A DNA stretch of 64,000 bases from Sphingomonas sp. (GTDB lineage: Bacteria > Pseudomonadota > Alphaproteobacteria > Sphingomonadales > Sphingomonadaceae), in the NCBI RefSeq assembly GCF_017744835.1, contig NZ_JAGIAM010000003.1, positions 496,001 through 560,000 on the forward strand, given 5' to 3'. The notes beneath the pieces are model-generated. The model saw nothing but the letters and a program-made list of their open reading frames with translations, searched no databases and was not told where the DNA came from. The first letter of the stretch is position 1, and every line of letters begins with the position of its first letter. The translations under genes were made by a program, and so were the position numbers. Below are positions 20,446-61,581 of the stretch, in pieces.

Positions 20446-20539
20446 AAGGGAACAGGACGCGAGCCTTCCTCAAGACACTCCACCCCGAGACGACGCGTCC
20501 CAAAACGCACCGCCCCGAAGTTCCCCTCTTGTTCCATGA

Positions 20540-20612: not shown

Positions 20613-21683
<1,071 letters not shown>

Positions 21684-39149: not shown

Positions 39150-39934
39150 GGCCGCCGCGGCGCGAGCGGGGAATCCCGCTTCGCGCGGTGCTTCCGAACA
39201 CCGTCACGGCGCTCGCGCTCTGCTCGGGCCTGACGTCGATCCGCTTCGCGATGCTCGGCAAATGGGAGCTGGCGGTGCTGATGGTGCTGCTCGCCGCCGT
39301 GCTCGACGGCGTCGACGGCCGGATCGCGCGATGGGTTCGTGCGGAGAGCCGCTTCGGCGCCGAGCTCGACAGCCTTTCCGACGCGATCTCCTTCGGCGTC
39401 GCACCGGCGCTGATCCTCTACCTCTGGTCTCTCAACGAGTTGGGCAGCTTCGGCTGGATGATCGCGCTGCTGCTCGCGCTGTTCTGCGCGCTGCGCCTCG
39501 CGCGGTTCAACGCCAACATCGACCGCGAGCACCAGCCGCACAAATCGGCAGGCTTCCTGACCGGTGTGCCGGCGCCGGCGGGCGCAGTGCTCGCGCTCAC
39601 GCCCCTGTTCCTGTGGCTGTGGATCGACCTGCCGCAGTTCCGCGCACCGCTGATGATCGCGCCCTGGACCGCCTTCGTCGCGGTGTTGATGATCTCGAGC
39701 ATCGCAACGTTCGCGCCGACGGTCCGGCTGCGGCAACGGATCCGATTCGAGGCCGTGGCGATGCTGGTGGTGCTGGTGGCGGCGCTGGTCTCCGCGCCTT
39801 GGCCGACGCTGGCGCTGCTCGCCTTCGCCTATCTGGCCATGATCCCGTTCAGCGTGCGCAGCTATCGCCGCGTCAGGCGGCTGCGCGCAGCGGCAGACGT
39901 GCAGGCATCCGGGCTGGGACCGCACGCACCGTAA
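39146..39934 (+). CDS. pssA: CDP-diacylglycerol--serine O-phosphatidyltransferase
   Basis: [20 protein letters not shown]...[36 protein letters not shown] (CDP-alcohol phosphotransferase motif). Confidence 0.95.
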
Positions 39935-40088
39935 GCCGGGCGAGGCGCGGCGGAAGCGCCGGAAGCGTGGAGGCGGGGCGGACGAGCTCGGCGAAGCGGT
40001 GGAGCTGGGGGCGAATGCTTACGAACATCGCGCATATGGAAAGCGTGAAGGCGGCGGCGAAGAGCAGCAGAACAGCAAATCCAATCAT
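39873..40088 (-). CDS. Small (71 aa) single-pass membrane protein, candidate SOS-regulated
   Basis: MIGFAVLLLFAAAFTLSICAMFVSIRPQLHRFAELVRPAS...; one N-terminal hydrophobic segment; ribosome-binding site GGGAG 6 nt before ATG; preceded by promoter-like sequence with LexA-type boxes; 3' end overlaps pssA antisense. Confidence 0.6.
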   Translation of the reverse strand: MIGFAVLLLFAAAFTLSICAMFVSIRPQLHRFAELVRPASTLPALPPRLARLTVRAVPARMPARLPLRAAA

Positions 40089-40176
40089 CACTCGCTCCCA
40101 ATTCGCTGGGCGGTAGAATCACAGGATTCTCAACCGCTTGGCTCTATCGGACGTTCCTTGTCCGCGTTCTGGACGC

Positions 40177-40226
40177 TGTATGTTCCACGAACGTTCCGCT
40201 GTCAAGCGCATGTTCCGCGATTGTTC
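40177..40226 (-). promoter_or_regulatory. Minus-strand promoter with two GTTC-N7-GTTC (LexA-box-like) repeats
   Basis: GTTC-CACGAAC-GTTC at 40182-40196 and GTTC-CGCGATT-GTTC at 40212-40226; -35 TTGACA (complement of 40200-40205), 17-nt spacer, -10 CATACA (complement of 40177-40182). Confidence 0.65.
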
Positions 40227-60813: not shown

Positions 60814-61581
60814 GTGAAAATCCGCATCCTCGGTTCGGGCACATCCTCGGGCGTTCCGAGGATCGGCAATGATTGGGGCACCTGCGACCCGAAAGATCCG
60901 CGCAATCGCCGCACGCGCGCTTCGGTGCTGGTCTCGACCGAGACCACGACGATCCTGGTCGATACCAGTCCGGACATGCGCGAGCAGCTTCTCGCGGCGG
61001 GGGTGAGCGACGTCGATGCAGTGATCTGGACGCACGATCACGCCGATCATACCCATGGCATCGACGACCTGCGCCAACTCATGCACCTGCGCGGAGGCGA
61101 GCCGGTCCGCGGCCTGGCGCGGCCGTTCACACTAGAGCAGCTCCAGGCGAAGTTCCCCTATGTCTTTTTCGGGCGGGGCGGGTATCGGCCGACCGTCGCG
61201 ATCGAACCGCTGCCGGACACGCTCGAGATCGGCGACATCCGCATCAGCGTGACCGACCAGCCGCACGGGGGCATCACCTCCGCCGGACTCCGTTTCGAGA
61301 ATGGCGGTAAATCAATCGGATATGCGACAGACTTCAACCAGATGACGAGCGACATGCGCGCGCTCTACACCGGGCTCGATGTCTGGGTGGTCGACGCGCT
61401 GCGCCGCGCGCCGCACCCCACGCATCCCCACCTCGACGAAGTGCTCGGCTGGGTCGCCGAGCTCGGGCCTAAGCGTTCCGCACTTGTTCATATGGACAAT
61501 TCGATGGACTATGCGCGCCTGGCCGCGGAGCTGCCGCAGGGCGTGGAGCCGGGCCATGACGGGCTGGAGATACGCGCGTGA
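60814..61581 (+). CDS. MBL-fold metallohydrolase (PhnP-like)
   Basis: MKIRILGSGTSSGVPRIGNDWGTCDPKDPRNRRTRASVLV...VDAVIWTHDHADHTHGIDDLRQL; GTG start. Confidence 0.93.
   Translation: MKIRILGSGTSSGVPRIGNDWGTCDPKDPRNRRTRASVLVSTETTTILVDTSPDMREQLLAAGVSDVDAVIWTHDHADHTHGIDDLRQLMHLRGGEPVRGLARPFTLEQLQAKFPYVFFGRGGYRPTVAIEPLPDTLEIGDIRISVTDQPHGGITSAGLRFENGGKSIGYATDFNQMTSDMRALYTGLDVWVVDALRRAPHPTHPHLDEVLGWVAELGPKRSALVHMDNSMDYARLAAELPQGVEPGHDGLEIRA

Follow-up and report, generated by a model that had tools for sequence, protein, structure and literature searches.

A 71-amino-acid (aa) open reading frame (ORF) between pssA and rpsB in a Sphingomonas sp. genome is strongly supported by sequence comparison as a genuine protein-coding gene, and its operator, its promoter, its single transmembrane (TM) segment and its conserved tail end have equally strong support of the same kind; we infer its actual induction, topology, target, and protease. 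The best explanation for the whole is a LexA-repressed gene whose product would block division at the septal complex and would then be cleared by ClpXP, a reading that we hold to be moderately probable. The gene would represent a fast-evolving family not described before, whose members probably act in the manner of SidA and YneA and are probably degraded by way of an SsrA-like degron. This offers a specific candidate for division arrest in the sphingomonads, a large and widely studied family, and the gene is present at most of the junctions examined. The features of the locus are listed below by their positions in the window, which is the whole stretch of 64,000 nucleotides that was analyzed.

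39873..40088, minus strand: gene for the 71-aa small membrane protein (ATG at 40088, TGA ending at 39873), with homologues found across Sphingomonadaceae at this junction
39876..39887, minus strand: C-terminal RAAA, candidate SsrA-like degron (Ala end conserved, selection in the ORF frame, own SsrA tag ending AIAA)
40020..40076, minus strand: predicted TM segment, residues 5-23 (Kyte-Doolittle mean 2.55 over 19 residues)
40095..40099, minus strand: GGGAG Shine-Dalgarno (direct reading)
40177..40182, minus strand: -10 element CATACA (direct reading), with a CATA/ACATA-type -10 in most relatives
40182..40196, minus strand: SOS (LexA) box in the promoter spacer, reading GAAC-N7-GAAC in the direction of the gene (exact consensus)
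40200..40205, minus strand: -35 element TTGACA (direct reading)
40212..40226, minus strand: second SOS box, upstream of the -35 element (exact consensus), about 30 nt further upstream and recurring in many close relatives

Re-reading of the coordinates placed both exact GTTC-N7-GTTC repeats and all six GTTC half-sites (starting at 40153, 40166, 40182, 40193, 40212, and 40223) where the sequence-only reading had put them. It also bore out a minus-strand TTGACA with the first repeat in the 17-nt spacer before CATACA, and an ATG with a GGGAG Shine-Dalgarno about 90 nt downstream that opens the 71-aa ORF. The spacer between the -35 and -10 elements is exactly 17 nt long and is mostly filled by the first repeat, which touches the first base of the -10 element; the second box lies 30 nt upstream of this spacer box. 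The ORF starts 93 nt downstream of the TTGACA-N17-CATACA promoter, has an in-frame GTG one codon upstream of its ATG (at 40091), and runs antisense over the 3' end of pssA for its last 62 nt. GANTC (CcrM) sites are most frequent 40-50 nt ahead of the ATG, both in the window (40116-40129) and in relatives, and a GAATC-N3/5-GATTC inverted repeat occurs at the same distance in 11 of 118 related loci. This repeat could form a hairpin in the leader or act as a site sensitive to methylation, and related loci may have it in common through descent.

Co-conservation of the ORF and the repeats at the same junction, a check proposed with the original reading, was found across the Sphingomonadaceae. An exact box lies within 260 nt upstream of the ORF in 113 of 118 distinct loci, and as these loci were gathered by protein similarity alone, the box is an independent finding. 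The rpsB gene is present in 111 of the 118 loci and pssA in 107, with the ORF divergent from rpsB in every locus whose stretch includes rpsB. A TTGAC -35 element sits 7-12 nt ahead of a box in 105/118 loci, mostly followed by a -10 element of the CATA/ACATA type. Five loci lack an exact box, and three of them (L043, L119, and L142) form one protein subgroup; in the two whose upstream sequence was read, L043 and L142, GTAC takes the place of GAAC in the first half-site, so that a weakened box is left. Two boxes 23-24 nt apart, mostly 130-177 nt before the ATG, are found in L147, L163, L168, L170, L172, and L178, an arrangement that suggests a shifted promoter and a longer leader.

A search with the single sequence recovered the ORF from 7 of 37 genomes in the genus, and a profile of 23 homologues gave a match in 193 of 201, the weakest matches not all having been inspected. 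A further test made no use of the ORF model: in 30 family genomes that had given no profile match in the searches run, rpsB served as the anchor, and as one of the rpsB contigs begins inside rpsB, 29 junctions were usable. An exact box was present within 450 nt upstream of rpsB in 22 of these 29 junctions and the reversed pattern in none, with 0.008 expected per junction. All 22 box-bearing junctions, among which fall all seven usable same-genus genomes without a profile match, carry a short ORF with one TM segment, which is encoded on the opposite strand and in nearly all cases ends in Ala. Because junctions without a match keep both the box and a one-TM ORF, the gene is more widespread than similarity search shows; such a search badly undercounts proteins of this kind, which can be found by promoter and gene position. 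Judged from these comparisons, the protein sequence is drifting fast while the promoter and the tail end stay. The box was absent from all 22 rpsB junctions of other Sphingomonadales families, and at rpsB junctions of other Alphaproteobacteria it was present in 2 of 30, compared to 3 of 30 for the reversed control, with no such ORF alongside. Restriction of the gene to the Sphingomonadaceae is strongly supported on this sequence evidence.

Exact GTTC-N7-GTTC boxes number four in the window, compared to 1.31 expected from shuffles, and 74 in the genome, compared to 28 for the reversed pattern. With a genome frequency of about one per 53 kb, two boxes within 45 nt are very unlikely by chance, and a chance origin is excluded by the conservation of the box at the same position in the 113 loci described above. 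Exact boxes also lie 3-78 nt before recA, lexA, uvrA, recN, uvrD, ruvB, dinB, radA, and two imuA genes. These genes were identified with NCBIfam, where several of the named proteins score below the full-length cut-offs because they are cut by the ends of their stretches, and both imuA matches are also under the cut-off. As the same box precedes the known SOS genes of this genome, it can be taken as the SOS operator. The Caulobacter LexA box has the same consensus (PMC12700426), and anoxia induces both imuA operons jointly with lexA, recA, and radA in another sphingomonad, Sphingopyxis granuli (PMC6472365). The earlier proposal of SOS/LexA control is supported by this sharing of a promoter-blocking box with known SOS genes, and on the sequence data we regard control of the 71-aa gene by LexA as nearly certain. 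The boxes do lie between rpsB and the ORF, so that they might serve rpsB or bind a repressor other than LexA, but this is extremely improbable, as one box lies within the spacer of a promoter directed at the ORF, the rpsB junctions of the other families in the order have none, and the identical box stands at this genome's lexA and recA. The recA gene lies in the same window (20613-21680) with an exact SOS box at 20520-20534, 78 nt before its start, and serves as a built-in positive control. Another exact box, at 61475-61489, falls inside a coding ORF (60814-61581) and is probably a chance occurrence.

The reading frame is under constraint, as was to be checked by Ka/Ks: the median Nei-Gojobori dN/dS is 0.22 over 68 homologue pairs, which are not mutually independent, making this value a summary and not a test. 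The ORF and pssA overlap tail-to-tail in 102 of 107 loci. An SOS promoter that mainly yields a regulatory transcript antisense to pssA, with the ORF secondary, would agree with the extension of ORF and transcript into the 3' end of pssA; we consider this very improbable in view of the purifying selection on the amino-acid frame, the Shine-Dalgarno, a TM segment that is kept even where the sequence is not, and invariant C-terminal residues that are selected in the frame of the ORF. The C-terminal residue is Ala in 118/118 proteins, and the end is AA in 114/118 and RAAA in 84/118. In overlapping loci, each of the last two Ala codons has a third base that is also the middle base of a PssA codon. 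These bases vary freely, giving PssA readings of Arg/Lys/Met/Thr and Arg/Gln/Leu/Pro with the ORF still encoding Ala. The wobble base of PssA is invariant across the same stretch. As the Ala third bases vary while the PssA wobble base is fixed, the Ala tail is selected in the ORF frame, and this variation by codon position rules out that the C-terminus is conserved through constraint on the antisense pssA frame.

Members of the family are mostly 70-80 aa long (range 70-108 over the 118 loci). The single N-terminal TM segment described for the 71-aa ORF is supported by sequence, and in the 118 loci it begins near residue 1-8 with no net positive charge ahead of it. Net charge after the TM segment is +4 to +10 in 112 of 118 proteins, and by the positive-inside rule the Arg/Pro-rich tail is predicted to lie in the cytoplasm. 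AlphaFold2 gave one helix (residues 2-36, with pLDDT >90 for the first 30 residues) and then a low-confidence tail (mean pLDDT 76.6), and the C-terminal end is predicted to be exposed on the basis of predicted disorder in the tail. The tmRNA (SsrA) tag of this genome is ANDNEALAIAA, and because it ends in AIAA, the tail end resembles an encoded degron of the SsrA type. The small, non-polar -AA terminus of SsrA-like ClpXP substrates is the one carried by the 114 proteins that end in AA; this resemblance to the SsrA tag is suggestive of ClpXP recognition, and SsrA-like turnover of the protein seems reasonably likely. A degron-like end and a conserved Arg-rich tail would also suit an SOS-induced, membrane-tethered adaptor or regulator, for instance one that modulates phospholipid synthesis via the convergent PssA or serves as adaptor to a protease, and so would the conserved convergent pairing with pssA and the tail-to-tail overlap. 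This role is unlikely, as the overlap is explicable as simple compaction, the gene is kept in a few loci without an adjoining pssA or without overlap, and nothing ties the protein functionally to PssA.

The window protein has no match in Pfam, NCBIfam, or PADLOC. Two Pfam matches, each to a single member of the 23 relatives, were at noise level, as were the best matches in PHROGs (E 0.064) and in the PDB (E 0.26), the latter providing no convincing solved structure, and Rfam gave no credible RNA at the locus. In the open literature that was searched, no SOS division inhibitor has been described from sphingomonads. The enterobacterial SulA is SOS-induced and short-lived in E. coli, but it is a soluble FtsZ inhibitor cleared by Lon, and SulA (PF03846) had no match in the sphingomonad genome at E<=0.1, with a positive E. 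coli control.

The description SidA/DidA-like in concept is acceptable only as an analogy: no SidA homology was detected, and DidA, which acts on FtsN, does not depend on SOS in Caulobacter (PMC4211646). SidA acts through FtsW to block division (PMC4211646). Caulobacter genomes for comparison were reached via a CcrM query, and two C. vibrioides genomes proved to carry a 29-aa ORF 49 nt after a GAAC-N7-GAAC box, just before dnaE and about 5.6 kb upstream of rpsB; by its length, box, and species it was taken as the sidA candidate. Because the family profile scored just 2.3 and -0.1 bits against the two candidates, no homology to SidA is detectable. Orthology through a shared rpsB/dnaE neighborhood was attractive, the Caulobacter dnaE being CC1926 (PMC1839093) and the sidA candidate lying so near rpsB, but it was rejected, as adjacent genes, orientation, and sequence differ; the dnaE of the present genome (C3:681509-684556) has no exact box just upstream. 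SidA is likewise a tiny single-TM protein under LexA-box control, and the C. vibrioides copies also end in Ala (AQLVA, ANLVA), but it has 29 aa, is almost only TM without an Arg/Pro tail, and stands before dnaE, whereas the sphingomonad gene stands at the pssA-rpsB junction. In C. vibrioides OR37, a candidate sidA lies near 10374-10550 of L317 and ends LVA. DidA also has 71 aa and one TM segment and is a damage-induced small membrane protein, but by description it is set apart, being induced by DriD without SOS, while the boxes here are of the SOS type. YneA (B. subtilis), SosA (S. aureus), and ChiZ (M. tuberculosis) are single-TM, damage-induced division inhibitors, and YneA contacts TM7 of FtsW and is removed by proteases following repair (PMC13396833). 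In YneA and ChiZ a LysM domain is found outside the membrane; here no LysM domain follows the TM segment, the ORF being without a Pfam match, and in its place is the Arg-rich, predicted cytoplasmic tail with its SsrA-like -AA. By anatomy and regulation the 71-aa protein would fit the functional type of SidA, DidA, and YneA, as a separate family by sequence.

SOS-induced small membrane peptides of another kind also have to be considered. TisB is an SOS-induced membrane peptide of E. coli, and TisB-like peptides are about 30 aa long and controlled by an RNA antitoxin. DinQ is a further SOS-induced membrane peptide of E. coli (PMC3567139). A small protein with one TM segment and an SOS box could be membrane-active in the same way, lowering membrane potential or slowing growth and so giving tolerance with no specific division block. 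We regard this as quite unlikely, as TisB and DinQ are toxic peptides under antisense RNA control and the sphingomonad locus has no Rfam RNA, and as the Arg/Pro-rich tail of 35-45 residues and the selected C-terminal end of the protein here point to a cytoplasmic part that is accessible and regulated by proteases.

Division inhibition by the 71-aa protein, judged from its sequence, is somewhat likely; the fast divergence of the TM segment fits a division inhibitor, but it also fits many other small membrane proteins. In the proposed mechanism, LexA on the spacer box, probably aided by the upstream box, would occlude a good sigma-70-type promoter, which would be released when DNA damage leads to RecA-driven cleavage of LexA. 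The N-terminal helix would insert the product in the inner membrane, leaving the Arg/Pro-rich tail in the cytoplasm, and most likely a contact between its TM segment and those of the septal peptidoglycan synthase complex (FtsW/FtsI/FtsN) would stop cytokinesis, in the manner of SidA and YneA. Once LexA re-accumulates, synthesis would end, the protein would be rapidly cleared, and division would resume; quick clearance is proposed because the C-terminal -(A/L/I/E)AA would be read by ClpXP like an SsrA tag. More tentatively, these proteins may be SOS checkpoint effectors specific to Sphingomonadaceae and unrelated in sequence to SidA, DidA, YneA, or SosA, which combine a TM anchor, an Arg/Pro-rich cytoplasmic tail, and an SsrA-mimicking degron that times release via ClpXP. 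If so, SOS membrane inhibitors arose or diverged repeatedly while the promoter and the destruction signal stayed fixed, and the locus points to how cells end division arrest.

Finally, in a genome survey of exact boxes only, no other short ORF with both a TM segment and a Shine-Dalgarno lay within 160 nt of a box, and another SOS-induced inhibitor behind a non-exact box could be missed. An exact SOS box lies about 250 nt ahead of ccrM in this genome (L025 1501-1515), and an ftsK-like gene, named by eye, has one about 240 nt upstream (L022 1501-1515). Two imuA-type genes each have an SOS box (L028, L085), with extra dnaE-type polymerases nearby (G000:C1:1172116-1175139 and C4:348260-351205), making up two mutagenesis cassettes.
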